DNA of 40,342 nt from Cupriavidus respiraculi (GTDB lineage: Bacteria > Pseudomonadota > Gammaproteobacteria > Burkholderiales > Burkholderiaceae). Numbering within the stretch: position 1 is the stretch's first letter; each line of letters opens with the position of its first letter. The stretch covers positions 1-40,342 of the forward strand of contig NZ_CAJZAH010000011.1 of NCBI RefSeq assembly GCF_914271545.1. The letters run 5' to 3'. The notes beneath the pieces were generated by a model, which had not been told where the DNA came from, did no database searches, and saw nothing but the letters and a program-made list of their open reading frames with translations. Shown here in pieces: positions 1 to 40,342 of this stretch. A program made the translations under genes and the position numbers.

Positions 1-85
1 GCGGCCGCGCGTCAGCGCCAACGGGTCCACGTCCCATACGGATTCGCAGTGGTGCTCCGTCTGCGGATGGTTGATCGCGTGCATG
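1..85. repeat. Left copy of 85-bp terminal direct repeat
   Basis: The first 85 bases are identical to the last 85 (40258-40342). The repeat lies inside the cytosine methyltransferase gene, whose reading frame continues across the joined ends without interruption. This fits a circular molecule written out with a short assembly overlap. A true terminal redundancy is less likely, because the repeat holds ordinary coding sequence. The first eight bases happen to be GCGGCCGC. Confidence 0.95.
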
Positions 86-231
86 GCCACGGCCTCGGGG
101 TCGTGGTTGATCGCGATGTCGACGTGGCGGCCCAAAGCCAGCTCGATGCCGCAGCTGGCGCCGCCGCCGCCGGCGAAGTTGTCGACGACGAGTTCGTGGC
201 TGATGTCGAGCAGGAATTGATCGCGAATCAT
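1..231 (-). CDS. DNA (cytosine-5) methyltransferase, N-terminal part (gene spans the junction)
   Basis: This is the start of the methyltransferase whose remainder is at 38695-40342. Translation begins at ATG 231, and the preceding gene ends with TGA at 228-230, giving an ATGA overlap typical of coupled genes. The N-terminal residues contain C5-methyltransferase motif I, NFAGGGGASCGIE (about residues 18-30), the S-adenosylmethionine pocket. The frame then runs through the 85-bp repeat into the right-hand copy. The joined protein is 597 residues. A local annotation of either end alone would miss motif I or call an internal Met as the start. Confidence 0.9.
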   Translation of the reverse strand, partial: MIRDQFLLDISHELVVDNFAGGGGASCGIELALGRHVDIAINHDPEAVAMHAINHPQTEHHCESVWDVDPLALTRGR

Positions 232-626
232 GCGCGGCACTCCGGTGTGCGCAGTGCGCGAATCTCTGCGACAAGTTCCGCGATGCGGCTGGACTGGTCC
301 TCCCGCGAGCCGCGGAGCAGCGCGCGCCGGGCATGCTCTGCGACCAGGTCGGCCGGCGCGCCGCGGCTATGCAGCATTGCCGCAAAGTTGGCCGCGTCGA
401 CCAGCTTGCCCTTGCACATCGATTCGGCCATCAGACCGGCGAGCAGCTCCAGCGAGCAAAGGCGCGGATCATCCCAGCCTGAATAGCCCTGAGCGCGTTT
501 CTCGGCCAGGCGCGCTTTCATCGCGTTGGAGATCTTCTCGACGGCGATGTCGTCAACGTGTTGGCGGGGTAGGGACGTGATGGCGGCGTGCGAGGTCGCC
601 GCAAACTTGGTGGCGCGATGGTTCAT
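228..626 (-). CDS. Phage early protein of unknown function
   Basis: A 132-residue soluble protein with no signal or membrane segment. Its middle, around YSGWDDPRLCSLELL followed by GKLVDAANFAAMLHSRG, resembles a short motif (GW.D....L...KG..VDVANF.MM) that I recall from small phage early proteins without known function. GGAG lies upstream of ATG 626. Its stop overlaps the methyltransferase start by four bases, so the two are probably co-translated in the leftward early operon. Function not assignable. Confidence 0.75.
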   Translation of the reverse strand: MNHRATKFAATSHAAITSLPRQHVDDIAVEKISNAMKARLAEKRAQGYSGWDDPRLCSLELLAGLMAESMCKGKLVDAANFAAMLHSRGAPADLVAEHARRALLRGSREDQSSRIAELVAEIRALRTPECRA

Positions 627-650
627 GATTTCTCCGGGGTGAAGGTGTTA

Positions 651-1085
651 TCAGCGGAGGGAGGGGAGGTCGTCGACGTTGATGCCCTGGACCGATAGCT
701 CGGCCTTGGCGATGTCGTGTGCTGCCTGGAGCGAGCGGCTCGATGCGGCCGCCAGTGCTTGGGCGATGTGCTCGGCGGCCGCGCGGATGGTGTCTTTTTC
801 CGCCTGCAGCGCGACGACCAGGTTCGTGGCTTCCCAACGATCAAAAATGACGTCGAGCGCGCGCTGGATAGAGCGGATCTGTGTGTCGAAGTCGCGCACG
901 CCTTGCATGCGCATCGCTTCGCGGGCCGTGGCGACCATGCAGGCCACCTGGGTGTAGGTGGCCTCGCAGGGGTCTAGGAAGAAAAACGCGATCGCGCGGT
1001 ACCAGTGCGTCTGCAGGGCGTGCGCCTCGGCCGCTGCGGTGAGCGCGGCGCCGTGGCGGGCCTGGTGATGGTGGGTGGTAGTCAT
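651..1085 (-). CDS. Hypothetical early protein, alpha-helical
   Basis: A 144-residue protein from ATG 1085, which overlaps the stop of the kinase-like gene (TGA 1082-1084) in an ATGA arrangement; a longer start at 1106 is possible but less likely. The N-terminus is His-rich (TTTHHHQARHG). The rest is Ala-rich and predicted helical, for example around AAAEHIAQALAAASSRSLQAA. No catalytic motif is recognised. It is part of the leftward early operon. Confidence 0.7.
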   Translation of the reverse strand: MTTTHHHQARHGAALTAAAEAHALQTHWYRAIAFFFLDPCEATYTQVACMVATAREAMRMQGVRDFDTQIRSIQRALDVIFDRWEATNLVVALQAEKDTIRAAAEHIAQALAAASSRSLQAAHDIAKAELSVQGINVDDLPSLR

Positions 1086-1603
1086 GCTGCGGCCGCCTCT
1101 TCCCAAGCCTGCTCTTCCACCAGCCTGTCGAGCAGGTCAAAGAAAGGGAAGGGCCTGTCCGGCACGTCGATCCGCTGCGCAATGAGGTCGTCAGGAATGG
1201 CTGGCTCGTCGCCGCGGTGAGGCGCATGGCTGTTTGTCAGCCGGACAACGATGCCGCCGAGCGAGCGAATCAGCTGCGCCTCCGCGATGTTCGTGACGTC
1301 GGGCACTACGGTCGGATGGGGGCCGGTGTCCTCGATCTGCTGGCGCGCAACAAGGGCGAGCGTGTCGTGCCCCAGCGCCGGGTGCTGGCGCAGCGTGGCG
1401 AGGAACTCATGGGGGGTAGAGGCGTAGCCCTTCGCAAGGGCGTGAAGCTGAGCCGGGAGGAACGCCTCCGCTCCCAGGTGTCCGGCCAATATGTGGCGCA
1501 GCGGTTCATCGAGGCGAATGACGGCGAAACCGTGCGCCTTGCCGAGATAGTCGGCGGCGTCGTCCTGGCCAGCGCCGGGACGACCGGAAAATCCGATCAA
1601 CAT
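1082..1603 (-). CDS. Deoxynucleoside monophosphate kinase-like protein with altered P-loop
   Basis: A 173-residue protein resembling phage dNMP kinases (T4 gp1-like P-loop fold), which phosphorylate dNMPs for phage DNA synthesis. The N-terminus MLIGFSGRPGAGQDDAADYL has the position and flanks of a Walker A loop, but the invariant lysine is replaced by Gln (GAGQDD where GxGKD/T is expected). The C-terminal half has a plausible lid/effector pattern (DVTNIAEAQLIRSLGG). Without the lysine, ordinary phosphoryl transfer is doubtful, so it may be inactive or bind another ligand. The family call is moderate, the lysine loss is seen directly. Confidence 0.6.
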   Translation of the reverse strand: MLIGFSGRPGAGQDDAADYLGKAHGFAVIRLDEPLRHILAGHLGAEAFLPAQLHALAKGYASTPHEFLATLRQHPALGHDTLALVARQQIEDTGPHPTVVPDVTNIAEAQLIRSLGGIVVRLTNSHAPHRGDEPAIPDDLIAQRIDVPDRPFPFFDLLDRLVEEQAWEEAAAA

Positions 1604-1614
1604 AGGGAAGGTCC

Positions 1615-1833
1615 TCAGTCGAGGTCGTTGGCCTGGCGGCGCTTGTGGTCGATCACGTTCGGATCGCGCAGCTTGGCGGGGGTCTTGCGCTTGCCCTTCA
1701 GGCGGGCCTCGATGGAGGCCACCAGCTGCAGGCGCATCTGCGGCGTGCGAATCGCGTCCTCGGGCCGGCCGCTTCCCTTCAGGCGCAGGAATTCGGCCAT
1801 CAGGGCAGCATTCGAGTAGGGGCGCGACCGCAC
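1615..1833 (-). CDS. Small basic hypothetical protein
   Basis: A 72-residue Arg/Lys-rich protein read from GTG 1833; an internal ATG at 1800 is an alternative giving 61 residues. Neither has a strong Shine-Dalgarno sequence. The C-terminus (KGKRKTPAKLRDPNVIDHKRRQ) is strongly basic and could bind nucleic acid. It lies tightly between its operon neighbours. Function unknown. Confidence 0.55.
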   Translation of the reverse strand: MRSRPYSNAALMAEFLRLKGSGRPEDAIRTPQMRLQLVASIEARLKGKRKTPAKLRDPNVIDHKRRQANDLD

Positions 1834-1839
1834 GGTGGG

Positions 1840-1971
1840 TCAGGCGTGGTAGGTCGGGGGCGGCGGGGCAGATTGCTCGTCGCTATGTACGGCGTAGGCA
1901 TGCGCGCCGGCGACCACGGCCGCCGCGGTGAGCGCGGCCAGCCAGCCCTTGATGCGCTTCAGCTTGTTCAT
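1840..1971 (-). CDS. Small signal-anchored/exported protein, first gene of the leftward operon
   Basis: Read from ATG 1971 (MNKLKRIKGWLAALTAAAVVA...), a 43-residue protein with a basic N-terminus, one hydrophobic Ala/Val stretch (about residues 10-24) and a polar Pro-rich tail. An AHA-like signal peptidase motif follows the hydrophobic stretch, so it could be exported or stay as a membrane anchor. It is the first gene behind the operator-covered leftward promoter and would be made immediately after induction. An in-frame extension to 2025 runs into the promoter and is unlikely. Confidence 0.6.
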   Translation of the reverse strand: MNKLKRIKGWLAALTAAAVVAGAHAYAVHSDEQSAPPPPTYHA

Positions 1972-2220: not shown

Positions 2221-2940
2221 CTACAGCTCGAAGGTGGCCGTCTGAATGACGCCACAGATCTGGTCGTCCTTCTGCATGGGAATGAAGCGATTGGGCCAGT
2301 CTGGATTCAGTGCCTCCAGGTAGGGATCGCCATCGACCATGGTGAGCTTTTTAAAGGTGGCCTCGTTACCGTTGCGGCGCACGACCACGAACTTGCCGGG
2401 CAGTGCTTCAGCGTCAGGATTCACGCCCAGCAGCATGCCCTCCGGGAAGGAGGGCGACTGCCCCGGCGGGGCTGTCATCGAAAAACCTTTGACGCGCAGC
2501 ATGAAGCCGTGCGCCCCCAAATCCTTGTGACAGTAGTGCCAATCCTGCGCTGCGGCAGGTTCAAAGTTGTCTGCTATTTCTGTCCACATTCCCGCTTGTA
2601 CCCATGAAATCTCGGGATAGAGCCGCGGCCTCAAGTCGGGCCCGGTCTCGAAGTTGTCGCCGAGTGTCGGGAAATTGTAAGGGTCTGCTGAATAGCTGAC
2701 CTGTCCCCCCGTTGGTGGGGTGCCACTGCGATCGTCTGGTAAGTCCAGCCAGCCCGTTGGGAGGCCGGCCTTTGCCTCGAGCTTGCGTGCCTTCTTTTCG
2801 CCAAAGCCCTTCGCGCCCCGCACGATCGCGGAGATTTCCCCCTGGTTCTCGCCGGTCTGGCGGATGAATTCGGCCTGAGTCCCGTACTTCTCGGTGATCA
2901 GGCGCTGGAGGCGCTTGCGGCGGTTGTCAACGGTCGTCAT
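2221..2940 (-). CDS. CI-like phage repressor (HTH + S24 autocleaving domain)
   Basis: A 239-residue lysogeny repressor. The N-terminal helix-turn-helix (about residues 16-50, TQAEFIRQTGENQGEIS) is followed by a linker and a LexA/CI-type S24 peptidase domain. The cleavage dipeptide is probably Ala116-Gly117 in WVQAGMW. The catalytic Ser is Ser154 (GFSM) and the Lys is Lys197 in TFKKL. All are present, so RecA-stimulated self-cleavage and SOS induction are expected. It is divergent from the Cro-like gene, with operators in between. The maintenance promoter places the transcript start almost at the ATG. Confidence 0.9.
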   Translation of the reverse strand: MTTVDNRRKRLQRLITEKYGTQAEFIRQTGENQGEISAIVRGAKGFGEKKARKLEAKAGLPTGWLDLPDDRSGTPPTGGQVSYSADPYNFPTLGDNFETGPDLRPRLYPEISWVQAGMWTEIADNFEPAAAQDWHYCHKDLGAHGFMLRVKGFSMTAPPGQSPSFPEGMLLGVNPDAEALPGKFVVVRRNGNEATFKKLTMVDGDPYLEALNPDWPNRFIPMQKDDQICGVIQTATFEL

Positions 2941-3027: not shown

Positions 3028-3294
3028 ATGGAAAAGCTGCTCGCCTACCTCAACGACCTTAGCAAGACCGAACGCGCAGCGTTCTGCGCTGCCATCGGCA
3101 CGACCGAGGGCTACCTGCGCAAGGCCATCAGTACTGGCCGTGCCCGCCATTTCAAGTGCGAGCTGTGCGTGGCCATCGAGATGCACTCGGGCGGCGCAGT
3201 GTCCCGAAAGGACCTGCGAGAGGACTGGGCGAGGGTGTGGCCGGAAATGACCTACATCACGATCGACCTGCACCGAATGCAGGCAGGCGAGTAG
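3028..3294 (+). CDS. Cro-like repressor of the YdaS type
   Basis: An 88-residue protein divergent from the repressor, in the position of Cro. The N-terminus (MEKLLAYLNDLSKTERAAFC, then GTTEGYLRKAIS) matches the YdaS_antitoxin/Cro-like HTH family found as prophage Cro analogues. The C-terminus is Trp-containing and acidic/basic mixed. It probably binds the same operators to switch off the repressor during lytic growth. The start is ATG 3028, just downstream of the operator at 3001-3016. Confidence 0.75.
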   Translation: MEKLLAYLNDLSKTERAAFCAAIGTTEGYLRKAISTGRARHFKCELCVAIEMHSGGAVSRKDLREDWARVWPEMTYITIDLHRMQAGE

Positions 3295-3510: not shown

Positions 3511-4026
3511 GTGACGTACCAGTACTCCGACATCGACCAGCACGAGGCGCTCTACAGCCTCGCCCGTCGATACCCAGGCGGCATCGATGCGCTCGCGCAG
3601 GCGATGGGCCGGCGCCAGGATAAGCAGGTCTCTCCCAACACTCTGCGCAACAAGCTGCGCCCGGGTATCGAGTCGCACGCGATGAGCGCGGAGGAGTTCT
3701 CCCTCGTCATCGAGCTGTGCGAAGAGGCCGGCGTCGAGCGGCACAACGCGCCGCTGCAGGCGATGTGCTGGCGCCACGGTCTGGTGGCCGTTGAGCCGCC
3801 GCGGCCCGGGCTGGTGGCCAAGGACGTCGTCGGCACGCTGGGCTCCGTGTCCCGGGAGTTTGCCGACCTGGTTGCCGAGGTTTCGGTCGGCGTCGCAGAT
3901 GGGCGCCTCAGCCCGAAAGAGAGCGAGCGTATCCAGACGGCGGCGCTCGAGCTCATGCGGGAGGTCCTGGGGCTCTCGATGACGGCCGAGGTAGTGGCCG
4001 AAGAGGGCGGGGCGGCCTCAGCATGA
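3511..4026 (+). CDS. CII-like phage regulatory protein (CP76 family)
   Basis: A 171-residue protein starting at GTG 3511 behind a GGGGG ribosome-binding stretch. The order of segments fits the phage regulatory CII (CP76) family: DIDQHEALYSLARRYPGGIDALAQAMG, then SPNTLRNKLRPG (HTH), then LSPKESERIQTAALELM near the C-terminus. It probably acts as a transcription regulator in the lysis/lysogeny decision. Its stop overlaps the next ATG (ATGA at 4023). Confidence 0.8.
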   Translation: MTYQYSDIDQHEALYSLARRYPGGIDALAQAMGRRQDKQVSPNTLRNKLRPGIESHAMSAEEFSLVIELCEEAGVERHNAPLQAMCWRHGLVAVEPPRPGLVAKDVVGTLGSVSREFADLVAEVSVGVADGRLSPKESERIQTAALELMREVLGLSMTAEVVAEEGGAASA

Positions 4027-4376
4027 CGCGCGTGGATCTGCTGCCGGGCGCTGCGATCGCTGCGCCCGTAGGACGCGTGCGCGTCAAAGCCCTCCTGAGG
4101 CCACGCAAGCCGCTCACCGGGCGCGAGCTAACCTCCCTCTTTGGCCGTATCCAGCAACGCATCCTGAAGGGCGGCGAGCCCTTCGGCGTATTCGTCATCA
4201 AGCACGGCCGCGGCCGTGTGTTTCGGCTGCTCAGCGTCCGCGATCCCAACTACAAGGTGCAGTTGCGCGTGGACCGGGCGCAGCAACACATGATCGCGAC
4301 GTATGACGGCAATGCCGACCTCGGTGATGTGTGGGACGACCTCTGTTCCTTCGACCAGGTGAGGGCCGGGGCGTGA
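4023..4376 (+). CDS. Hypothetical early protein
   Basis: A 117-residue protein translationally coupled to the CII-like gene (ATGA) and to the next gene (GTGA at 4373). It has no membrane segment. The central part (FGVFVIKHGRGRVFRLLSVRD) is beta-rich and basic, possibly nucleic-acid binding, but no family is recognised. Confidence 0.65.
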   Translation: MTRVDLLPGAAIAAPVGRVRVKALLRPRKPLTGRELTSLFGRIQQRILKGGEPFGVFVIKHGRGRVFRLLSVRDPNYKVQLRVDRAQQHMIATYDGNADLGDVWDDLCSFDQVRAGA

Positions 4377-4798: not shown

Positions 4799-4984
4799 AT
4801 GGACTATCCCATCCAGCCAATCGAACAGATCGAAGCGCAGGGCAGGGCGGCCGCCGCGGCCGAGGCCTGCCCGATGCGCGCCAATCCGTATGCCGAGGGC
4901 ACGCCCCACAGCCACGCATGGCAGGTGGGCTTCCTGGCGTACCAGCTCGAGCAGAGCATGATCGAGGCGGAGCAAGGCCAATGA
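4799..4984 (+). CDS. Rmf/CrpP-fold small protein
   Basis: A 61-residue protein with the pattern AQGRAAAAAEACPMRANPY followed by HAWQVGFLAYQ. This resembles the ribosome-modulation-factor-like (Rmf/CrpP) fold, in which a Gly/Ala helix, a CP-NPY turn and a W..G...A helix recur in short proteins of phages and mobile elements. The role in phages is not established, and ribosome binding is only an inference from Rmf. Its stop overlaps the next gene (ATGA at 4981). Confidence 0.6.
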   Translation: MDYPIQPIEQIEAQGRAAAAAEACPMRANPYAEGTPHSHAWQVGFLAYQLEQSMIEAEQGQ

Positions 4985-6024
4985 CTACTTTCGTCATCGA
5001 TGACCGCGAGTGGACCGCGATGCGTGCCGTCGACCATTTGGCGCGCGACCTGTATGACGCCCTGCGGCGAAGCATGGACTACAAGACCGGCATCGTCGGT
5101 GGCCCGGCAAAGGCGATCTCGTGGTGGTCCCTACGCGAGGACACCGAGGTGCCAGGGCGGCCCGGTGTGAAGGCGTACAAGCCCTCCGAGCAGCAGCTGC
5201 GGCGCCGCATGGCGCAGTTGGAAAAGATCGGCCTGGTCGAGTCGATCGGCAACAAGCTGCAGCTCAAGTTTCGATTGCTGTTGGCCCGCACAGCTTCGCT
5301 CGCCTCGGAAAAAGCCGACACCCCTTCGACACCCCCTGAGGCGTCCCGCAAAGCCAGTAAGGACAAGGCAGTCCGGGGTTATGCACAGATGGGGTCTGGC
5401 CCGAAAGCCGGCACACATCAGGAGTCAGATAAAACCGTAAAAACCTCTCCCCCTACCCCCTCACGCCTGCGGCGCGAGAGGGATGACAAAGCGATCGACC
5501 CTCCCGCACCTGCGGTGCGAGAGGCCGACAACCCCAAAGGCGACGAAACACCCATCGCGGCGCAAGGGCGCCTCGAGCCCTCAGAGCAACGCCACGAGCC
5601 AGCAGCCGCGGTGGGGGGAGGGCCTTCGGCCCCGAATCCAGAGGAGGAGCGCGAAGCGACCATCGAGTGGGAAGCGGGGCTCCATTGGCCGAGGGGCCTG
5701 ACGCAGCGGCAGCGGGCCTACGTTGCACGAAGGCTGCGGCCGCTAGGCGCGGCGCTCGGACAGCGCGTTTTGGACGAATGGCGGGGCGCCAATCAAGCCG
5801 GTGGCATTCACGCCCCGTGGGCGTTCTTCAACGCCCTGGTGGCGAAGGCGCAGCAGCCGGATTGGGACCCGATCTACGCCGACGACGTCGCGCATCAACG
5901 CGAGCTGGTGCGGGCCAACCGCGCCGCGCAAGAAGCAGCGCACGCCGCCAGGGTTGGTGATCTGCCGAAGGGGCCGATGCCCAAGGGCATGCTGGCCAAG
6001 CTGATCAAGCGGCGGGCACGGTGA
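4981..6024 (+). CDS. Phage replication initiator, O-like
   Basis: A 347-residue protein starting at ATG 4981. The N-terminal third has a winged-helix look (FVIDDREWTAMRAVDHLARDLYDALRR...SEQQLRRRMAQLEKIGLVE). The middle (about residues 105-235) is a Pro/Ser/Glu-rich low-complexity linker. The C-terminus (LTQRQRAYVARRLRPLGAALGQRVLDEWRG) is helical. Domain order and position just before the antiterminator fit lambda O-type/helix-loading proteins. The low-complexity middle contains a pair of direct repeats (5462-5524) that could belong to a lytic origin. Confidence is moderate because no catalytic motif exists in this family. Confidence 0.65.
   Translation: MTTFVIDDREWTAMRAVDHLARDLYDALRRSMDYKTGIVGGPAKAISWWSLREDTEVPGRPGVKAYKPSEQQLRRRMAQLEKIGLVESIGNKLQLKFRLLLARTASLASEKADTPSTPPEASRKASKDKAVRGYAQMGSGPKAGTHQESDKTVKTSPPTPSRLRRERDDKAIDPPAPAVREADNPKGDETPIAAQGRLEPSEQRHEPAAAVGGGPSAPNPEEEREATIEWEAGLHWPRGLTQRQRAYVARRLRPLGAALGQRVLDEWRGANQAGGIHAPWAFFNALVAKAQQPDWDPIYADDVAHQRELVRANRAAQEAAHAARVGDLPKGPMPKGMLAKLIKRRAR
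5462..5524. repeat. Two ~20-bp direct repeats inside the O-like gene
   Basis: CACGCCTGCGGCGCGAGAGG (5462-5481) and CGCACCTGCGGTGCGAGAGG (5505-5524) are near-identical and 43 bp apart. The second contains the palindrome CGCACCTGCGGTGCG. Lambda-type origins lie inside the O gene as iterons, so this is a candidate lytic origin. Two copies only is weak, and repeated coding sequence in a low-complexity linker is the alternative. Confidence 0.35.
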
Positions 6025-6341
6025 TGGCCGGCGCTCATACGGCGGCGACCGCCTTCGCCGAGGCGGTGGCGATGTGCAGCGGCGATGCGGCGCCGGCGGC
6101 GTGGTCGTCGCGCGCGGCTTACTGGACGGCGGTGCGGTACGGCACGGTGGCATTGCGCGACGCACCTGCGTGGGCCGATGCGCAGGACCGGTGGGGCCGG
6201 CTGTGGGACGTCGTGCGCCAGGAACATCTGCCGCCCATTCCTGGCGCGCCCGAGGTGGGCCAGCAGCGCGCGACAGCCACGGTGGCAGAGCACAACATCG
6301 CGCAGATGCGCACGATGGTCGGAGGGAGGAAACGGCGATGA
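6024..6341 (+). CDS. Hypothetical early protein downstream of O-like gene
   Basis: A 105-residue protein from ATG 6024, sharing its A with the preceding stop (TGATG). It is Ala/Trp-rich and helical (AAYWTAVRYGTVALRDAPAW), soluble, with a basic C-terminus (GGRKRR). Position suggests a replication accessory role such as helicase loading, but the sequence gives no direct support. Its last bases overlap the next gene by four (ATGA at 6338). Confidence 0.6.
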   Translation: MAGAHTAATAFAEAVAMCSGDAAPAAWSSRAAYWTAVRYGTVALRDAPAWADAQDRWGRLWDVVRQEHLPPIPGAPEVGQQRATATVAEHNIAQMRTMVGGRKRR

Positions 6342-6754
6342 ACGCAGAAAAGGGTACGGGCTCGCGGCTGTCCCGCGAGCGACTGGCGCGAGTGGTGGAG
6401 CGCCTGCATTCCTGGGGTCGATGGGCCAAGAGCGGTGGCGGGCGCAACGGCTACGGACAGAGCTGCCTCACGTTGGAGGAGATCCGCTCGATGCCGGTGC
6501 AGGCGTACATTCCCATGTCACCGCCCGAATGCGAGCAGACGCACGAAGCCTTGCGCAAGCTGCCTGCCGAGCTGCACCGGCTGGCGATCGCCTGGTACAT
6601 CGATGAGCTGTCCAAGCCGATGGTGGCGCGTCGACTGCGGGTCAGCGAGCGCCATGTCTGGCGCCTGCATGATTCGCTGCTGTCCGGCGTCGACTTTTGC
6701 CTTAGGAATCCACGGCTTAAGGCACCCCCCTTGGAATTGCTATTGAAATCGTGA
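6338..6754 (+). CDS. Q-like late antitermination protein
   Basis: A 138-residue protein from ATG 6338. Its C-terminal half (ALRKLPAELHRLAIAWYIDE, then MVARRLRVSERHVWRLHDSLL) has a sigma-region-4-like helix-turn-helix typical of phage antiterminator Q families. It is the last gene of the rightward early block. It is directly followed by a candidate promoter overlapping its 3' end and by hairpins, as with lambdoid Q/pR'/tR'. It probably lets RNA polymerase read through the downstream terminators into the late genes. Confidence 0.7.
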   Translation: MNAEKGTGSRLSRERLARVVERLHSWGRWAKSGGGRNGYGQSCLTLEEIRSMPVQAYIPMSPPECEQTHEALRKLPAELHRLAIAWYIDELSKPMVARRLRVSERHVWRLHDSLLSGVDFCLRNPRLKAPPLELLLKS

Positions 6755-7087: not shown

Positions 7088-7264
7088 ATGGCCCGTTGCA
7101 CTGTTCGCGTTCGGCTGGTGCGCGCCTGGTGGCTCGCGCCGTTCCTCTGTGCTGCTCGACTGTGCATCGCCGCCGCGCGTTGTTCACCTGAGCCGGAGTG
7201 GATCGGCCGCGTTGTGGCGCGGGGCTTTCGCGTTCGCGTGGATGTCGACGAGAGCGTGCGCTGA
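7088..7264 (+). CDS. Small basic protein, possible membrane association
   Basis: A 58-residue ORF from ATG 7088 (MARCTVRVRLVRAWWLAPFL...) whose stop overlaps the HNH start (TGATG at 7262-7266). It is Arg-rich at both ends with a short hydrophobic, Cys-containing centre. The tight coupling to the HNH gene supports translation, but the ribosome-binding site is weak. Function unknown. Confidence 0.5.
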   Translation: MARCTVRVRLVRAWWLAPFLCAARLCIAAARCSPEPEWIGRVVARGFRVRVDVDESVR

Positions 7265-7638
7265 TGCCGAGCAAAGCGCCTCGGCCGTGCCGGCATCCGG
7301 GTTGCCCGCGCTACGCGGCCGGCGGCACCGCTTACTGCGCGGACCATGCGGTCAAGCGCAGCACCGAGGCGGAGGAGCGCCGCGGCAGTTCAGCGGCGCG
7401 CGGCTATGGAGGGAAGTGGCAGCGAGAGCGCGCCGAGTACCTCAAGGCGAATCCCATTTGTGTCGAGCATCGCAAGGCTGGGCGCATCGTGCCGGCCACC
7501 GTGGTCGACCACATCGTGCCCCACAAGGGTGACCAGCGACTGTTCTGGCGCCGAAGCAACTGGCAGGCGCTGTGCAAGTCGTGCCACGACCGCAAGACCG
7601 CGCGCGAGGACGGCGGCTTCGGCAACCGGCGCTGCTGA
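7264..7638 (+). CDS. HNH endonuclease associated with terminase
   Basis: A 124-residue HNH nuclease. The N-terminus carries Cys/His pairs (CRHPGCPRYAAGGTAYCADH) typical of the zinc-supported phage HNH family. The core reads VVDHIVPHKGD...NWQALCKSCHDRKT, giving the His-Asn-His metal-binding ββα fold. Position just before the P27-type terminase small subunit matches HK97-like phages, where such HNH proteins are required for cos cleavage and packaging. A homing role is less likely here. Confidence 0.9.
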   Translation: MPSKAPRPCRHPGCPRYAAGGTAYCADHAVKRSTEAEERRGSSAARGYGGKWQRERAEYLKANPICVEHRKAGRIVPATVVDHIVPHKGDQRLFWRRSNWQALCKSCHDRKTAREDGGFGNRRC

Positions 7639-11419: not shown

Positions 11420-11428
11420 GGGCACTCC

Positions 11429-12040: not shown

Positions 12041-12051
12041 ACGGAGAAGTT

Positions 12052-13651: not shown

Positions 13652-13659
13652 GGGCGGCC

Positions 13660-30813: not shown

Positions 30814-30858
30814 GTTGGATGTTCCTCTATTCGCTACTGGCTACGGGCTACGAGAACA

Positions 30859-30880: not shown

Positions 30881-30885
30881 CTTGT

Positions 30886-32532: not shown

Positions 32533-32546
32533 GACCGCCTTGCCCG

Positions 32547-33421: not shown

Positions 33422-34390
33422 CTACCAGTCTTTCACCAAGCGCGGGACACTGGTCCGCGAGGGCTCCAGGTACAGGCCCTCTTTCGTCGGCTGCACCTTT
33501 GCCGGGTACACAGTCAGGACCTGCTGCAGCTGCTTGCTGAGGACCTCCCTGAATTTTCGATCCCGCCCGGCCTCGGACCCAAACTGTTGTTTTAGCGATT
33601 CCCAGGGGACAGTCGTAGGGGCGCGCAACGAAAAATTGCGGTACGTCAGCCAGCAGTACAGGTCCAGGGCCATCGGCGATTGCCGGAGCGCCCGCAGCGC
33701 TCGCAGGTCGATCGGCACCGGGGTGTTGATCACCTCGTTGTAGAAGCGCTCGGACAGGGTGATGGTGGATTGCCACAGGCCGGCCTGGTCAGGGCGCTGA
33801 GGGTCCCACCACAGATCTGTTTCGTCCGCGATGAGGAAAGACTTTTGCCCGAAGTCGGCGCCCTGCTCTCCTCCGTAGACAACGGCGATGTGGGCCGCGA
33901 ATAGCCGCTTCATCTGTTCACGGATGCGGGTGATGTTTCCTCGCGGGCCGCCGTTCTGGCTGGTGTAGCCGAGAGCCTCCATGAAGTCCGACAGGCGATC
34001 GCCGAGCACCAGCTGGCGGTCCTTTGTGCGAAAAGCCTCGGTTGCGATCCATGCCAAGAGCAGGCGGGGATATGTGCCGTAGGGATAGCCGATGCTCTGG
34101 TCCTTCCCCTTCTCGTCAAAGTAGACGCCCGGCTGGATAACCAGGCTGACATTGCCGGCGCGCCGCCCCCAGGCTCGGAGATCCTTGTCCGGTTCCTTGT
34201 AGGGGAGCGTGGCTTGCACCAGGGCGCGCCCCATGAAGCCCATCATGCCCGCGGCCTTCGCGTCCTCCAGCTCCATGGCTTGAGACTCTTCAAAGAGGCG
34301 AGCGGCGATGCTGGGGCGGATGCCGCCGGCGGCGGCTTGGCCGCCCTCCCCTTCTTTTGCGTTCGTCACGATATGCAGCGGTCTGGCCAT
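33422..34390 (-). CDS. repA: Plasmid replication initiator RepA
   Basis: A 322-residue protein of the plasmid-encoded RepA family (PF04796 type), read from ATG 34390 with GGAG upstream. Family features include MMGFMGRALVQATLPYKEP near the N-terminus, PYGTYPRLLLAWIATEAFRTKDRQLVLG, and YCWLTYRNFSLRAPTTVPWESLKQQFG. It should bind the iterons at 34641-34850 to start plasmid replication of the prophage. The single inverted iteron at its own promoter suggests autoregulation. Confidence 0.9.
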   Translation of the reverse strand: MARPLHIVTNAKEGEGGQAAAGGIRPSIAARLFEESQAMELEDAKAAGMMGFMGRALVQATLPYKEPDKDLRAWGRRAGNVSLVIQPGVYFDEKGKDQSIGYPYGTYPRLLLAWIATEAFRTKDRQLVLGDRLSDFMEALGYTSQNGGPRGNITRIREQMKRLFAAHIAVVYGGEQGADFGQKSFLIADETDLWWDPQRPDQAGLWQSTITLSERFYNEVINTPVPIDLRALRALRQSPMALDLYCWLTYRNFSLRAPTTVPWESLKQQFGSEAGRDRKFREVLSKQLQQVLTVYPAKVQPTKEGLYLEPSRTSVPRLVKDW

Positions 34391-34416: not shown

Positions 34417-34462
34417 GGTATAGCACAGGGCCGGATCTGCGGTCACGCTGATCTAGGGGCGC
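34417..34462 (-). promoter_or_regulatory. repA promoter with inverted iteron
   Basis: Minus-strand GTGACC (plus 34441-34446) and TATACC (34417-34422, preceded by an extended TG) are 18 bases apart. The iteron GCGCCCCTAGATCAGCG reads on the minus strand at 34446-34462 and touches the -35. RepA binding here could regulate its own transcription. Confidence 0.6.
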
Positions 34463-34531
34463 TCGGTGTTGACTGTCGCTGTGTCTCTACATTGCTGGTG
34501 GGCGGCGCAGCGTATGGTGGGCAACCGCAGG

Positions 34532-34600
34532 TTGTCCACAGAAGCGCGTCGCTATACCAGCAAAGCTATAAGTAAACTACTCTTATCAGTAAACTAGAGG
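34532..34600. promoter_or_regulatory. AT-rich stretch with DnaA-like box and direct repeats
   Basis: A DnaA-like TTGTCCACA lies at 34532-34540. An AT-rich segment follows, with AGTAAACTA at 34571-34579 and again at 34588-34596 (17 bp apart). This is the likeliest DNA-unwinding element beside the iterons. Confidence 0.6.
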
Positions 34601-34640
34601 CCGCCATTTCGCCTTATACCTCAACGAGTTACGAGGGAAA

Positions 34641-34850
34641 TCGCCCCTAGATCAGCGCCCGACCGCCCCTACTTCAGCGTGAAAGCGCCCCCACATCAGC
34701 GGGCGGGCGCCCCCACATCAGCGTTGGAACGCCCCTACTTCAGCGTGGATAAGTGCCGCTGTCCACAGGCTTTATGCACAGGCAGCATTGCCAGTGGGCC
34801 GACGCCGAAAGCGCCCCTAGATCAGCGTGAAAGGCGCCCCCACTTCAGCG
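34641..34850 (+). repeat. Iteron array of the plasmid origin
   Basis: Seven direct 17-bp copies of GCGCCCCYANWTCAGCG (first base variable) start at 34641, 34663, 34685, 34707, 34729, 34811 and 34834. The first five have an exact 22-bp period, two turns of the helix, so bound RepA would face one side. Sequence variants are TAGATC, TACTTC, CACATC and CACTTC. A truncated copy follows near 34856. An eighth full copy is inverted at 34446-34462. Confidence 0.93.
34744..34780. promoter_or_regulatory. DnaA boxes between iteron groups
   Basis: TTATCCACG is on the minus strand at 34744-34752. CTGTCCACA (34759-34767) and the consensus-matching TTATGCACA (34772-34780) are on the plus strand. They fill the 65-bp gap between iterons five and six and should recruit host DnaA. 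Confidence 0.7.
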
Positions 34851-34870: not shown

Positions 34871-35887
34871 TTACTTCGTTTCGTCCAGCAAGCTGGCCAC
34901 GTAGGCTTCGCGCTTCGCAGGATCGTCAAAGGTCATGTCCACAGTGACGCGACCGTTGTCCCACTCTTTGAGGGTGCCGATGGGTTGCCCGGCTCGCATG
35001 ATCTTGTACTGACGCGACGTGTTGCGTTTTGCGCGGGTGCCCTCCTCCGCCTTCTTGCGGATCGCCTCCACCTTGGTGAATGGAAGGCGCTCCGCGGCAA
35101 TGCGCTGGGCAAGTTCTGCCGTCTTATCCTCGCCTGCCACCTTGTTGTATAGGGTCAGCTCATAGCCCACCGAAACGCCGAAAGCGTCCGGATTCTCCGT
35201 GATCACATCGAGAACCGATTGCGGCAGCTCCACTAGCGCCAGCATTTTGCTGATCTTTGCTTTGCTCTCGCCGACGATGGGGACCAACTCCTCGTCCGTC
35301 TTTGCAATACCGGCATTGAGCAGCTGCCGATATGAAAACGCCACATCGAGGATGCTCTCCTGCTCGCGCTCGTTGTTCAGCAGATGCGCCAGCTTGTAGA
35401 AGTCGACCGGAGACAGGCCCTCCAAGATGCGGCATTCCATGTCCGAATGGTTAAGGTGGAGGAGCGCCTTTTTGCGATAGTGCCCGTCAATGAGGGTATA
35501 GCGGCCCTGTTTGGTGGGATTAGGTGCCACCGGCGCCGGGACCATTTGACCTTCGGCGGCGATCGAAGCAGCCCGCGCTTTCACCTTATTTTCGTCGTAG
35601 AACTTGCGGCTGTTGAGCGGATTGTCATCGATCAGATCCAGAGGGATACGCGCATACCGGCTCGACGCCCTACCCTCCGCCACCAAGGTTTCTACGTGGA
35701 AACTTTCATTGGCGCTGCTCGGTTTGGCGGATGTGCCCTCCCCCGTCTGAAGGAGATTCGTTCTTCCGCTCAATACATCGTCCACACGATCGAACCGATC
35801 TAGGGCCGCCGTCTGGCGGATGGCTTGATCGCGCTCAGCGCCGGCTTCAAGTGAATCGAGGAAATTCTTTTTGCCTTTTGTAGCCAT
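34871..35887 (-). CDS. parB: Partition protein ParB
   Basis: A 338-residue ParB/RepB/Spo0J-family DNA-binding protein. The N-terminal ParB domain holds IPLDLIDDNPLNSRKFYDE and RYTLIDGHYRKKALLHL. The HTH region is LVPIVGESKAKISKMLALVELP. The C-terminal part probably dimerises. It is coupled to parA (10-bp gap) and should bind the GTTTCTACGTAGAAAC palindromes. One such site lies inside its own gene (35688-35703). Confidence 0.93.
   Translation of the reverse strand: MATKGKKNFLDSLEAGAERDQAIRQTAALDRFDRVDDVLSGRTNLLQTGEGTSAKPSSANESFHVETLVAEGRASSRYARIPLDLIDDNPLNSRKFYDENKVKARAASIAAEGQMVPAPVAPNPTKQGRYTLIDGHYRKKALLHLNHSDMECRILEGLSPVDFYKLAHLLNNEREQESILDVAFSYRQLLNAGIAKTDEELVPIVGESKAKISKMLALVELPQSVLDVITENPDAFGVSVGYELTLYNKVAGEDKTAELAQRIAAERLPFTKVEAIRKKAEEGTRAKRNTSRQYKIMRAGQPIGTLKEWDNGRVTVDMTFDDPAKREAYVASLLDETK
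35688..35703. promoter_or_regulatory. parS-like palindrome inside parB
   Basis: GTTTCTACGTGGAAAC differs by one base from the perfect palindromes at 36584-36599 and 36679-36694. It may be a partition site embedded in coding sequence. Confidence 0.55.
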
Positions 35888-35897: not shown

Positions 35898-36554
35898 TTA
35901 ATTCTTGATGAGCGATAGCACTTCGTCCACCAGTGCGTTGACCTCGCGCTTTGCCTCTCTGGCGCTTGCGTTCAATGCAGTCACGGGTTGGCCCATAACC
36001 TCCGCTTCGGGATATGCCGCCCGGTCGCCGATGACCGTCTGGCAAAGCGGGATCTCCTCGTCCTTGCCCAGCAGCTCGAAGACTTGCCGGCTGATCGTGC
36101 GATTCTTGTTCATGTTCGCCAGCGTGCGGACTTGAAGGTTTTCGTTCTCAGCCATCGCGCGTAGAGCCAGGTTCTTCGCTTCTTTGACAGCCCACATATT
36201 GCCGCCGGAGCCTGCTACCGGGATGAGCCCAACATCGGAAATGAGCAGCGACACGGAGGGTGCGGTGGACTCGATGGCCGGAGGGCAGTCGATGACGATG
36301 AAGTCATAATCCGCGACGTGTTTTCGGATCTCTTGGTGCGGCTTCGGGTGGTGGCCGAGATTGATCACTGTCGCCGGAAAAGGTTTGTCCTCGGGCGCTT
36401 GGCCGGACGATATGGTCGCTGTGTTTTGCGGGTCCAAATCAACGAGCATGGTCTTGTGCGAGCGGAGCCCCAGCGTCCCCGCAAGATTCAGGGATACCGT
36501 AGTCTTACCGCAGCCGCCTTTTTGGTTGAACACCGTGATGATCTTCGCTGGCAT
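35898..36554 (-). CDS. parA: Partition ATPase ParA
   Basis: A 218-residue ParA/MinD ATPase. The deviant Walker A KGGCGKTT (residues 12-19), DLDPQNTATIS and the Walker B region FIVIDCPP are all clear. It lacks an N-terminal HTH, as in the small ParA type, so autoregulation would come from ParB at the palindromes upstream. AGGAG precedes ATG 36554. It moves plasmid copies apart together with ParB. Confidence 0.95.
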   Translation of the reverse strand: MPAKIITVFNQKGGCGKTTVSLNLAGTLGLRSHKTMLVDLDPQNTATISSGQAPEDKPFPATVINLGHHPKPHQEIRKHVADYDFIVIDCPPAIESTAPSVSLLISDVGLIPVAGSGGNMWAVKEAKNLALRAMAENENLQVRTLANMNKNRTISRQVFELLGKDEEIPLCQTVIGDRAAYPEAEVMGQPVTALNASAREAKREVNALVDEVLSLIKN

Positions 36555-36580: not shown

Positions 36581-36602
36581 GAGGTTTCTACGTAGAAACC
36601 TC
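36581..36602. promoter_or_regulatory. parS-like palindrome upstream of parA
   Basis: A perfect 22-bp palindrome whose left half is GAGGTTTCTAC, 27 bp before the parA start. It contains the shared core GTTTCTACGTAGAAAC and could serve as partition site and operator. Confidence 0.8.
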
Positions 36603-36633
36603 CCTGGGCATGCGACGGATGATATACAGTAAG

Positions 36634-36673
36634 AATAAAAATAAAAAGAAAATAAAAGCGGGCATCGCCCGCT
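36634..36673 (-). terminator. Terminator of the leftward early operon
   Basis: Read on the minus strand, the stem AGCGGGC/GCCCGCT (36657-36673, 3-base loop) is followed by a long T/A-rich tract (plus-strand A run 36634-36657). It lies just after the last early gene and isolates it from parAB. Confidence 0.85.
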
Positions 36674-36678
36674 GCGTG

Positions 36679-36694
36679 GTTTCTACGTAGAAAC
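36679..36694. promoter_or_regulatory. Second parS-like palindrome
   Basis: GTTTCTACGTAGAAAC, a perfect 16-bp palindrome, lies 80 bp beyond the first, on the far side of the operon terminator and six bases after the last early gene's stop codon. Confidence 0.75.
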
Positions 36695-36699: not shown

Positions 36700-36972
36700 C
36701 TACCCGTTGCTCCTGCGCCACGCGCTGAAGGGCAGGGCGACCAGGAGGGTGAACCTCCGACCGGCTTCGGGATCTGTGTCGAACTCGCGCCGCGACTGAA
36801 CGTCGCACAGGTCTTTGATGACTGCTGCGGCGCGGTCACGCGGCCCGAGGCTGTCGTGCGCGTCCCATCGGGAGGAGTGGTTCGCAGCGATGAAACTCTG
36901 GAAGTCGCTGCGGGCACCTAGGATCGCGGCGTCGCGCGAAAGGGTAGGCCGGCGCGGTTTCGGGTCAGCCAT
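36700..36972 (-). CDS. Small hypothetical protein, last of the leftward operon
   Basis: A 90-residue basic protein from ATG 36972, overlapping the previous stop by eight bases. It has a soluble, mixed helical composition (LSRDAAILGARSDFQSFIAA, then RDRAAAVIKDLCDV). The operon terminator follows. Function unknown. Confidence 0.6.
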   Translation of the reverse strand: MADPKPRRPTLSRDAAILGARSDFQSFIAANHSSRWDAHDSLGPRDRAAAVIKDLCDVQSRREFDTDPEAGRRFTLLVALPFSAWRRSNG

Positions 36973-37303
36973 TGCAGTGGCCCTCCTGTTGGTTGGCGCG
37001 GTCGCGCAATTTCCATCGCGCCTGTAGGGCGGCGCCGTTGTCATGCCAGCTCAGCGCCATCGCGTGGCAGCAGTGAGCGCACCAGCGGTAGGACCGCATG
37101 GTGTCGTCAAACTTTGCGTCGAGACGGCGCTGCTGCTCCCCTGCGTTGATTGCGCCTAAACAGTCGTTGCAGGTGCCCGGCTTTCGCGCGAGGCAGACGC
37201 GATCCGCAAAGACCATGTCGCCGGGCGAGCCGAAGTCGCCATCGAACGGATTTAGCGCGAGGCAGTCCTCGACTTGCTTGGCTGAAAGGCGTTCGGCTTC
37301 CAT
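36965..37303 (-). CDS. Zinc-finger-like hypothetical protein
   Basis: A 112-residue protein whose centre carries Cys pairs consistent with a metal site: CLARKPGTCNDCLG, then WCAHCCHAM. Its start shares a base region with the upstream gene's stop (37303). Similar Cys-pair proteins occur in many early operons of high-GC phages, without assigned function. Confidence 0.65.
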   Translation of the reverse strand: MEAERLSAKQVEDCLALNPFDGDFGSPGDMVFADRVCLARKPGTCNDCLGAINAGEQQRRLDAKFDDTMRSYRWCAHCCHAMALSWHDNGAALQARWKLRDRANQQEGHCNG

Positions 37304-38229
37304 TAGCCCTCCTGCGCGGGTTGGCCGGAGCGGGCGAGGATGGCGAAGCCCGGTAGCGGAAGCGGCATCCAGTGCGTGGCGGCGGCGGCGACTTCAGTGC
37401 GTGCGTCCTGCTCGCCGTCAGGGCTTGGGTACAGGTCATCGGCCTTGATGTCGAAAAACTGTTCGCCCGCGAAATCCGCTCCTTCGGTGTAGACGAGCAC
37501 GCGCTCGCCGGTGCCGATCGGCGGCAGGCGGTCATTCACGGATACCCACGGCAGCCCCGCCTGCGCCACCGATGGGACATGCTCGGGCAGCGGCGAGTGC
37601 TTCGGCTTGGCGGCCTGCTTGGCGCGGATCTGCTCGACCTTCGTCCAGATGCGGGCCAGTTCGGTTTCGCCCGCGGCGTGCATGTCGAGGCCTTGGGCGA
37701 GGCACAAGGCGGCCAGCGTCACCATGACGCCGCCAACTTCCTGCGTCTTCTCACCGACCGGGCGGCGGTAGACGTAGTCGACCAGCTGGTGTGCCTCGCT
37801 CGCCGTGGCGCCGCACGCCTGCACCAACTCCAATGCTTCTTCGAGGAAGCGGTGATTGCGCTCTTGCACGTCGGCGGCGATCTCGGCCCCGAAACACGCC
37901 AGCATCCAGGGCTGCACGCGCCGCTGAGAGTCGGTCGCCACAGCCTCGCCCACCGGCTGCGATGCGGCGTAGATGCGTTCTGCGGCTTTGAATCCCTCGG
38001 TGTAACCGTTACGGTGGGCCTCTTCCACGTCGGCCGGGTAGACCACCGGCACGCTCGGCGCAACACGGGCGAGCGTGGCGAGCTCGATGGCGCGGGTGTA
38101 CTCGTAAGTCCTCCGGCTTTGGCCGCATGGATCGTGCTGCTCGATGAGCCTCCTGATCTTGTCTTCAGTCAGGCCGCCGCTGTGTGGGTGGGCAGGAGCG
38201 GGGTAGTTCGTGATCGGCTTGTTTGTCAT
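37303..38229 (-). CDS. MazG-like domain fused to DUF551
   Basis: A 308-residue protein. The middle (NHRFLEEALELVQACGATASEAHQLVDYV, then KTQEVGGVMVTLAALC) has the all-alpha NTP-pyrophosphohydrolase pattern with the Glu-rich EExxE-like helix and a downstream Glu. The C-terminal ~85 residues are DUF551-like (WVSVNDRLPPIGTGERVLVY ... THWMPLPLPG). Such phage proteins may adjust nucleotide pools, but the substrate is not readable. The combination of domains is worth noting. Confidence 0.75.
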   Translation of the reverse strand: MTNKPITNYPAPAHPHSGGLTEDKIRRLIEQHDPCGQSRRTYEYTRAIELATLARVAPSVPVVYPADVEEAHRNGYTEGFKAAERIYAASQPVGEAVATDSQRRVQPWMLACFGAEIAADVQERNHRFLEEALELVQACGATASEAHQLVDYVYRRPVGEKTQEVGGVMVTLAALCLAQGLDMHAAGETELARIWTKVEQIRAKQAAKPKHSPLPEHVPSVAQAGLPWVSVNDRLPPIGTGERVLVYTEGADFAGEQFFDIKADDLYPSPDGEQDARTEVAAAATHWMPLPLPGFAILARSGQPAQEG

Positions 38230-38233
38230 TGCG

Positions 38234-38698
38234 TCACTCGGAGAAAAGCGCCACCTGGCGCGGGTCGATAGGGGAGGGCACTTCTTTGCTGGCGCGTGCC
38301 TTCGGTGGATCGGCTTGCAAGGGTGGTGGGCGATGAATCAGCCCGCCGGCATGCACGTGTGCAAACAGCCGGCGGATCGCGTCCGCTGGGTTGGCGCAGG
38401 CGCGTGCCTCCCCCGGGATGAACAGGCCGGCGTTGTGCGGAATCGCATCGCTGTAAAAGCAGCCGAGATCTCGTGCGAGATCCGTCATGGCCTGGTGGAT
38501 AGCGGTGGCCACATCGGTGGGCTGGTCGACCGCGCCGGTCGGTGCGTGCGGCAGCTCGCCTGGCAAGACCTCGCGCACTAGCACGCGCTCGATCGTCGCA
38601 GGGCTACGGCTCCATGCCCCCGGGGTCGCATCCATCACGCCGCGGGTGGGGCTGGTGAGAGCGGCGGTCCATTCGCGGGGACGTTGCGCTCCGGTCAT
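38234..38698 (-). CDS. Hypothetical early protein
   Basis: A 154-residue protein from ATG 38698, coupled to the methyltransferase stop (ATGA). The part from DVATAIHQAMTDLARDLGCFYSDAIPHNAGLFIPG is helical and similar in feel to uncharacterised phage early proteins. No motif is recognised. Confidence 0.6.
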   Translation of the reverse strand: MTGAQRPREWTAALTSPTRGVMDATPGAWSRSPATIERVLVREVLPGELPHAPTGAVDQPTDVATAIHQAMTDLARDLGCFYSDAIPHNAGLFIPGEARACANPADAIRRLFAHVHAGGLIHRPPPLQADPPKARASKEVPSPIDPRQVALFSE

Positions 38699-40342
38699 GC
38701 TGCCACCTTCGCGGCCTTTGCCTCGCGGGCGGACCAACTCGCCAGCTCGGGCGCGTTGGCCCGAACGAGAGCGGCCGCCATGGGTGGACTCACGCTGTTG
38801 CCGCACATACGCACCTGCGCATGCTTCGGCAGCCGGCGGCCGTTGATGATGGGCGCGATCACGTAGGTGCTGGGGAACCCCTGGGCGGCGTACAGCTCGT
38901 GCGGCTCCAGCATCCGCATGCCGATGTCAGCGATCTGGTATTGCTCGCCAGCCACCGTTACAAGGCCAAAGCGGCCCTTCGTCGGGATGGTGTGCATCGG
39001 GTCGCGGCAGTCCTGATCCTGTCCGCCTTCCGAATAGTATTTAACGAGGAAGGCCCGGACCTCGCCGATATGCGTGCCGCTGGCGGTGACCGTCGGCACG
39101 GGCTCGGCCAGCGCGCTGCCGGTGCACTCGCCGCGGAGCTTCACCAGGTGCGACGTTGCGATCGCGGTGTCGCCCTTGGCCGTGATGGTCTGCACGGGTT
39201 CGCCGGCGTCGCGCGGGCGGCTCTGGCCGGCGCGGCCGCCGCAGCCCACCAGTTGAGCGGATACCAGTCCGTGGTGATCGGTGGCGGTGATGGTGTGTAG
39301 TGGGTCGCTCAGCTCGTGGCCAACCACGCCCGTGAAGTGCTTTGCCATGAAGGCGGATACCAGCGCATGCTTGCGGCCCTGAGCAGTGACGGTGCCAAGC
39401 GGCTTGTGAAGGTCGAGGCAGCGCGGTGCCTGACCGGCGCGCTCACCGAAGCCAGCCTGGATCATCGTCGGCGCGATGATGCCCAGCGCGTGCGGCGCGC
39501 CAGCCGGCCTTTTCTTCGGGCCGGCCGTGATAGTCGGCATCGGGGTGCGAAGATCAGCGCCCGTGCTGCCGGTGCGGAACTTCGTCAGGTGCGGAGCCAC
39601 GACGCCGTAGCCGTGCTTTCCGGTGATGGTTTGGATCGGCTCGGCCAGGGCCTGTCCACGGAACTCGTCGCCGCCATGGTTCACCTTCACGATGAACGGG
39701 GCCGCCGCGTCGATGACATACCGGTGCAGACCGCGCGCAATGCGCCGCTGCGTGGCCTCCGCCAGGGGCTTCGCCCGCTCGAAGATGGACGGGCACGGGA
39801 TCGACCAGTCAATGCACTCGGCGGCGGTGCGCCACGGCTTGCGCTGCTTGGCCACGACAGCGGCGCTGTCCGGCGCGCCGTGGGTCGGCTCCGGCCAAAC
39901 GATGGGCTGACCATCGCAACGGGCGATCAGAAACAGGCGTTTGCGGGTGGTCGGCGCGCCATAGTCGCAAGCGCGCAACTCGCGCCATTCGACGGCGTAG
40001 CCCTTCTCTTGCAGCTGCCGAACGAAGGACCGGAAGGTATCGCCCTTGCGCTTCGGGCACGGGGTGCCGTCTGCCAGCACCGGCCCCCACGTTTTGAATT
40101 CCTCGACGTTCTCCAGCATGATCACGCGCGGGCGCACCAGCGCTGCCCAGCGCATCGCCACCCAGGCGAGGCCGCGGATCTTCTTGTCTCGCGGCTTGCC
40201 GCCCTTCGCCTTGCTGAAGTGTTTGCAGTCCGGCGAGAACCACGCCAGGCCGACGGGGCGGCCGCGCGTCAGCGCCAACGGGTCCACGTCCCATACGGAT
40301 TCGCAGTGGTGCTCCGTCTGCGGATGGTTGATCGCGTGCATG
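38695..40342 (-). CDS. DNA (cytosine-5) methyltransferase with internal repeat array, C-terminal part
   Basis: This is the remainder of the gene that starts at 231; joined length is 597 residues. Motif IV is FSPDCKHFSKAKGG with catalytic Cys88 in SPDC instead of the common PPC. ENVEEF (VI), TTRKRLFLIA (VIII), PHELYAAQGFP (IX) and GNSVSPPMAAALV (X) are all present. Between VIII and IX, about 235 residues hold seven units of the form P-x-x-T-[IV]-[TP] followed by a Gly and a hydrophobic strand (full-length residues about 283-515, positions ~38943-39645). This is much longer than usual and is probably a multi-part target-recognition region. No restriction partner is nearby. Confidence 0.93.
   Translation of the reverse strand, partial: MHAINHPQTEHHCESVWDVDPLALTRGRPVGLAWFSPDCKHFSKAKGGKPRDKKIRGLAWVAMRWAALVRPRVIMLENVEEFKTWGPVLADGTPCPKRKGDTFRSFVRQLQEKGYAVEWRELRACDYGAPTTRKRLFLIARCDGQPIVWPEPTHGAPDSAAVVAKQRKPWRTAAECIDWSIPCPSIFERAKPLAEATQRRIARGLHRYVIDAAAPFIVKVNHGGDEFRGQALAEPIQTITGKHGYGVVAPHLTKFRTGSTGADLRTPMPTITAGPKKRPAGAPHALGIIAPTMIQAGFGERAGQAPRCLDLHKPLGTVTAQGRKHALVSAFMAKHFTGVVGHELSDPLHTITATDHHGLVSAQLVGCGGRAGQSRPRDAGEPVQTITAKGDTAIATSHLVKLRGECTGSALAEPVPTVTASGTHIGEVRAFLVKYYSEGGQDQDCRDPMHTIPTKGRFGLVTVAGEQYQIADIGMRMLEPHELYAAQGFPSTYVIAPIINGRRLPKHAQVRMCGNSVSPPMAAALVRANAPELASWSAREAKAAKVAA
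40258..40342. repeat. Right copy of 85-bp terminal direct repeat
   Basis: Identical to 1-85. Joining the two copies restores one uninterrupted methyltransferase gene and gives a circle of 40,257 bp. Confidence 0.95.

Follow-up and report, generated by a model that had tools for sequence, protein, structure and literature searches.

Gene content and closure of the element

The window analysed here is the whole of contig C11 (RefSeq accession number NZ_CAJZAH010000011.1; 40,342 bp) of the 18-contig, 5.59-Mb genome sequence of Cupriavidus respiraculi (genome G000), and the element that it represents, hereafter W, was found to carry both phage and plasmid genes. Gene prediction with our own codon-usage caller gave 57 open reading frames (ORFs). 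CI, CII, the virion and lysis genes and two DNA methyltransferases were assigned using PHROGs and Pfam (Table 1), with the virion genes predicting an HK97-type head and a lambda-type tail. The two gene sets by which a phage-plasmid is recognised, namely a full set of virion and lysis genes and genes for plasmid replication and partition, are thus both predicted in W.

The first and last 85 nt of C11 are identical, giving a circle of 40,257 bp, and no other end overlap of 20–399 nt was found in this contig. ORF g57 (597 aa) spans the join, and relatives with 76% and 90% identity were aligned with it over 600–601 columns. The homologue on host contig C2 was also colinear through the joined ends of W when the 85 nt was counted once. 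The overlap is not simply the word length of the assembler, as a shared stretch of exactly 111 nt was found at two further contig-end pairs of the same assembly (C14–C18, which have N at their ends, were ignored). On the basis of the identical ends and the PHROGs and Pfam gene content, the initial annotation of the window as a complete circular phage-plasmid with HK97/lambda-type siphovirus genes and a RepA-ParAB replicon was confirmed.

No integrase was found in 56 of the 57 ORFs (50 scanned with PHROGs and six more with Pfam), a scan that left out g05 (43 aa) and covered 548 of the 597 aa of g57. No transposase, insertion sequence or protelomerase was named among these ORFs, and a small local integrase profile did not match W, bearing out to this extent the earlier claim that integrase and transposase genes are lacking. 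A genome-wide search with PF00589 also gave no match on C11. As this search missed an integrase at C2:677342 that was detected at 38 bits by a protein scan, absences from it are weak, and where the individual proteins of a record were not scanned, the absence of an integrase is to be taken as provisional.

The eight exact iterons upstream of repA compare with 0.02 expected, a figure that flatters the array because the pattern was taken from the same sequence, and a tandem array of these iterons was also recovered without a prior pattern. ParB matched Spo0J/Noc-type ParBs in the PDB. The palindrome found twice upstream of parA is perfect over 16 bp, and we take this pair to resemble chromosomal parS; over the whole circle, palindromes of at least 14 bp were not in excess (eight positions versus 5.1 in shuffled sequences). 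The large host contig C1 (G000:C1:1574551–1575525) encodes a RepA ~50% identical to that of W, and cross-talk is possible. Among the listed genomes of the genus, 57 have a RepA match and one does not.

Table 1. Predicted genes and other features of W (window coordinates)
Feature	Coordinates	Strand	Basis or remark
Terminal direct repeat	1–85 = 40258–40342		Identical ends, mark circular closure
Leftward early genes g01–g05 (g03 dNMP-kinase-like)	228–1971	-	g01–g04 common to most relatives
CI-type repressor	2221–2940	-	PHROGs; OX homologue annotated S24 peptidase
Cro/YdaS-like regulator g07	3028–3294	+	Profile/annotation of relatives
CII-type activator g08	3511–4026	+	PHROGs/Pfam
g09, no assigned function	4023–4376	+	Present in 5/5 plasmid-type members
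g12, possible lytic replication protein	4981–6024	+	Winged-helix-like N-terminal domain, low-confidence model
g14, helix-turn-helix (HTH), weak antiterminator Q similarity	6338–6754	+	E 0.021, below cut-off
HNH endonuclease	7264–7638	+	PHROGs; adjoins terminase
Terminase small subunit (TerS)	7824–8327	+	PHROGs
Terminase large subunit (TerL), phrog_9	8372–10042	+	PHROGs
Portal, head protease, major capsid protein (HK97 type)	10196–13296	+	PHROGs
Head-tail connectors, tail terminator, major tail protein	13331–15577	+	PHROGs
Tape measure (16204–19071), lambda-type minor tail proteins, J (22804–25968), tail fibre genes	15577–26936	+	Siphovirus
Endolysin, holin, Rz-like spanin (lysis)	27409–28926	+	PHROGs
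DNA methyltransferase	29065–29853	+	Adenine type per annotation of plasmid homologue
Toxin-antitoxin pair: HTH antitoxin (30487–30813), ParE-type toxin (30886–31143)	30487–31143	-	PHROGs/Pfam
Lone ATP-dependent DNA ligase domain (g47, LigD-like) and DUF2188 (g48)	31903–32768	-	Lysis-side border of lysogeny cassette
Replication initiator RepA (RepA_C)	33422–34390	-	Pfam
Putative origin: 8 iterons CGCTGAWSTRGGGGCG, 7 on -, 1 on +	34446–34850		Upstream of repA
ParB	34871–35887	-	HTH_ParB above Pfam cut-off; ParB_N below
ParA ATPase	35898–36554	-	Pfam
parS-like palindrome GTTTCTACGTAGAAAC, two copies (within 36582–36601; 36679–36694)	36582–36694		Upstream of parA
g53	36700–36972	-	Early-side border of cassette
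Cytosine DNA methyltransferase g57	38695–40342, on across join to 231	-	Pfam and relatives

Related elements of plasmid type

Four other elements of plasmid type were found, namely plasmid unnamed3 of Cupriavidus oxalaticus X32 (OX; accession number NZ_CP038638.1; 37,950 bp), which is recorded as circular, and the IMG/VR records A, B and C. Contig C5 of genome G301 was identical to NZ_CP038638.1 over the 3,915 bases compared, and IMGVR_UViG_2846725519_000001 matched OX over 13,365 bases compared. A search of IMG/VR with RepA retrieved OX, A and B together with a distant match (33%) in a 148-kb contig; C was found in a search with g09, and its RepA was detected afterwards. Without repeats the four measure 36.2 (C), 37.95 (OX), 38.8 (A) and 45.0 kb (B), and end repeats of 127 nt are present in B and C.

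W was found to have in common with all four part or most of the interval from CI to g14, g01–g04 in part, the endolysin and holin genes and RepA, and the parA-parB-repA order is the same in the five elements. No integrase was detected in the other four; A, B and OX, in each of which RepA is present, gave none with the local profile, and a Pfam scan of ten of the long proteins encoded by A, B and C was also negative. The features used to delimit the group (early genes, endolysin-holin, RepA_C and g53 beside parA) were all found in W, which has ParAB of another type. Between A and OX, ParA, ParB and RepA are 99%, 89% and 86% identical, respectively.

RepA (E ≤ 1e-20) and TerL (E ≤ 1e-40) were encoded on one contig in 2 of 398 genomes of the family (G000 and G301). 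The g09 profile matched eight of the 398, strongly in three (G000, G301 and G331), and a single genome, that of W, in an order-level sample of 399. A scan of genome contigs with RepA recovered only RepAs of at most 44% identity, and the one match to RepA among phages (33%) was in a 3,940-base record. When phages and plasmids were searched by megablast with each half of the window, the matches were patches only, the longest (~1.5 kb, 76%) being in head genes of Halomonas phage QHHSV-1.

An integrase or repA-parAB in one interval

TerL was used to search viral contigs (best 80 of 103 stretches), and 50 records selected by TerL or by early genes, leaving out fragments L151, L154 and L155, were tested for RepA_C and integrase. 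An integrase was found in 39 (38 over the cut-off) and RepA_C in one (C), with neither in 10 and both in none. Among 16 g12/g09-bearing records besides A, B and OX, an integrase was found in ten (G404, G405, G406, G412, G413, G414, G415, G416, G418 and G420), RepA_C in C and neither in five, and again none had both.

A prophage in a 3.87-Mb contig of another genome of the genus, G331, carries int (identified using the local integrase profile), g53, early, virion and lysis genes and a LigD-like gene, followed by host-like genes. The g53 homologue is directly beside int in G331, where W has parA-parB-repA, and is no more than ~170 nt away from parA in each of the five plasmid types. As g53 adjoins parA in these five and int in G331, one and the same interval houses int in some phages and parA-parB-repA in others. 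The end of the integrase frame of I2 is 1.5 kb short of g53, and a homologue of g47 was found at the other prophage end in both G331 and I2, in the latter as a piece. In the integrase-bearing I1 (IMGVR_UViG_2834641062_000001), g53 had no match and the integrase is one gene from DUF2188-LigD.

In the g12 tree, from which G405 was absent, W fell in a 100/100 group of 13 rows that includes eight integrase-bearing records and four unlabelled fragments. A single clade for the five plasmid types was rejected (cost 114 log units, p-AU 8e-11). The integrase/plasmid label requires three changes on this tree, and, because three or fewer also arose in 78 of 500 label shuffles, the tree indicates mixing but no direction. 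A, B, C and OX group as a single clade in the RepA tree, with W adjoining them and Burkholderia plasmids. A separate gain of RepA by W from Burkholderia plasmids is conceivable, as W RepA is nearest to theirs, but the tree did not put W among them, and one clade for all five was not rejected (p-AU 0.107).

The host contig C2 includes a prophage (~631,900–678,400) with a lambda-type integrase, a neighbouring gene that is presumably uvrB-like, and a DUF2188-LigD block, and its cytosine methylase is 90% identical to that of W. A 381-bp stretch of the window (36965–37345) is 96% identical to C2:498892–499272, which suggests recent exchange between W and the host genome. Judging from these sequences, potential recombination partners for W are present in the same cell.

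Differences among the virion genes

OX and C were found to have contractile tails, with sheath proteins 76% identical to one another. A head of HK97 type (TerL 40%) is combined in A with tail genes of a different sort, without a sheath among the ten proteins scanned. The terminase of B belongs to a separate family (phrog_15), which we take to be of the lambda gpA type, and B also differs in its portal and tail genes. When virion gene sets drawn by hand from the coordinates were compared in pairs, W was found to share 1 of 22 virion genes and 20 of 35 other genes with B, 3/22 and 14/35 with C, and 4/22 (mean 48%) and 16/35 with OX; A and OX share 3/18 and 18/29. OX and the integrase-bearing I1 have 21 of 24 virion genes in common (mean 70%), and a chromosomal prophage from another genus of the family (G192) shares 15 of 22 virion genes and 3 of 35 other genes with W. 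As virions differ among the members, and integrase- and repA-bearing phages share early genes, the earlier suggestion that the specific pairing of this virion with this replicon marks a group was not upheld.

Lysogeny of W and alternative explanations

The circle, the plasmid-family replicon, the lack of a detected integrase and the four similar elements, likewise with none detected, make extrachromosomal lysogeny of W, as had been proposed, well supported. In a lysogen, CI would silence the lytic genes, replication of the circle would be driven by RepA at the iterons and its partition by ParA-ParB together with the two palindromes, and the toxin-antitoxin pair would penalise its loss. On induction, inactivation of CI would allow the early genes to run and the terminase to package the DNA, and particle formation and a low copy number are likewise predicted. 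It is highly probable that W is an intact temperate siphovirus, maintained in lysogens as a circular plasmid of low copy number, and that it belongs to a lineage with a modular chassis.

The chassis would consist of the early and immunity genes and usually endolysin-holin. A single address in it, from the lysis side (the LigD/DUF2188 genes where present) to g53, would receive either repA-parB-parA or an integrase, and separately from this lysogeny cassette the chassis would carry one of several virion modules. Most likely, W is a plasmid prophage in which the lysogeny cassette and the virion module have been swapped separately. The data lean slightly towards a broader form of this proposal with two independent sockets, one for int or repA-parB-parA, at which the mode of lysogeny has been switched repeatedly, and one for virion modules that cross between contractile and non-contractile tails and between terminase types. 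This form would reverse the rule reportedly stated in the title of Pfeifer et al. (2021).

That W is instead a normal prophage of the integrating kind, captured in its excised circular form and with the plasmid genes as passengers, is quite improbable. Circular contigs are also obtained from excised phage genomes, and relatives sharing the early genes integrate, but an integrase was found neither in the 56 scanned ORFs nor with the local profile, the iteron-RepA-ParAB set of W is complete, and the same arrangement is present in OX, a recorded circular plasmid. A defective phage-plasmid, in which the plasmid is kept and particle formation has been lost, is unlikely given that the frames of the main virion and lysis genes are open, with matches that cover most of each gene, and that no insertion sequence was named among the scanned ORFs, although such derivatives of P1-like elements have been reported (PMC10879196). 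Erroneous joining of plasmid and phage sequences during assembly, named beforehand as a finding that would overturn the annotation, draws on the draft state of the assembly (18 contigs) and on nothing further; as the phage-plus-RepA-ParAB layout recurs in four other records and g53 borders parA in all five, this can hardly be the explanation.

A number of observations weigh against W being a plasmid prophage of such a modular lineage. The 85-nt overlap of W differs from the 111 nt common to other contig ends, an end repeat is missing from A, and three of the four relatives are metagenome-derived records. The ParA and ParB of W have only 22–29% identity to their counterparts in the other four elements, and the iterons differ, hence the plasmid part has not been conserved as a single block. 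Of the 22 virion genes of W, nine (mean 35%) are nonetheless common to W and A, along with 16 of 35 other genes, indicating that divergence accounts for part of the virion difference, and the endolysin of I1 is only 37% identical to that of W, indicating that the chassis does not always include the lysis genes. The five of 16 g12/g09-bearing records with neither int nor RepA_C comprise G419 (45 kb, with an integrase-like fragment) and four fragments of 7.8–20.7 kb (G402, G411, G417 and G422), and the RepA tree does not reject a single clade for the five plasmid types.

Other genes of W and its relatives

The CI-type repressor appears from its sequence to carry an S24-like autocleavage signature. 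The placement of g12 is, we assume, like that of lambda O, and g12 possibly encodes a lytic replication protein. Homology of g12 to lambda O was not supported, as no Pfam match was found and the structural model (pLDDT 66.7) gave only generic winged-helix or unrelated matches, none with E ≤ 0.001. The ligase domain stands alone at 31903–32532 and has homologues in B, I1 and G331. A small plasmid of Comamonas odontotermitis (NZ_CP083453.1; 36,925 bp) matches the adenine methylase of W and is perhaps another phage-plasmid.

In A (L046, L141), an ISL3 transposase is encoded near the early genes, and two acyltransferases and a GDSL hydrolase, perhaps serotype-conversion cargo, are encoded between the tail and lysis genes; one acyltransferase was found in C (L171). 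In each of the four relatives A, B, OX and C, a coiled-coil protein, which we take to be KfrA-like, is encoded between the lysis genes and repA; it had no match in W at E ≤ 1e-4. B also encodes (L047:2266–4278) a 670-aa protein with a weakly ParB_N-like start and an H-NS C-terminus, homologues of which were found in I2, D and G331.

Comparison with known systems

OX resembles W in TerL (77% identity), CI and CII (61% each), g09 (55%), g12 (42%), g14 (54%), endolysin (71%), holin (65%) and RepA (55%), and in the parA-parB-repA order beside g53, but differs in its contractile sheath tail, portal (33%), capsid (23%), ParA (29%), ParB (26%) and iteron type. Burkholderia plasmids such as bpln_1p (NZ_CP007214.1, typed as conjugative) have a RepA 65–69% identical to that of W, the same parA-parB-repA order and iterons ending GGGGCG, whereas their ParA and ParB are ~27–30% identical and no phage gene is annotated in the stretches examined. 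Both I1 and the G331 prophage carry early genes related to those of W (41–81% and 27–71% identity, respectively) and a LigD-like gene, but have an integrase in place of repA-parAB and a contractile-type tail; the endolysin is 75% identical in G331, against 37% in I1.

Phage N15 has lambda-like virion genes, RepA and a linear prophage with a protelomerase. W differs from the N15 type, siphovirus phage-plasmids of 40–66 kb (Table 1 of PMC12977533), in closing as a circle and in that no protelomerase family was named in its scanned ORFs. The P1 and SSU5 types measure 72–134 kb in the same table, a range that excludes W at 40.3 kb. Burkholderia phage KS14 forms a plasmid lysogen, as found in a plasmid preparation, and its relatives KS5 and KL3 integrate (PMC3091744). 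However, KS14 is P2-like (32,317 bp; PMC3091744) whereas W is an HK97/lambda-type siphovirus without a P2-type virion, and the two are likened by description only.

As W lies outside the 10 well-defined types in Table 1 of PMC12977533, the suggestion that it belongs to an undescribed group is plausible, although the virion-replicon pairing is not the marker of that group. The 5,712 phage-plasmid-like genomes described in PMC13221032, or untyped singletons of published catalogues, may include OX, A, B or C. Conversions of P1-like phage-plasmids by gene loss are in print (PMC10879196), and exchange of whole virions among phages that keep their chassis and hold int or repA at one site was not described among the literature matches listed. 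For the origin of phage-plasmids, and for possible changes of temperate phages from integrating to plasmid lysogeny or back, the related phages with int or repA-parAB in one interval offer a switch that can be mapped and tested. Typing of phage-plasmids by conserved virion proteins would be expected to split the W lineage. Phage-plasmids, including lambda-like ones, and a Burkholderia plasmid prophage are already known.

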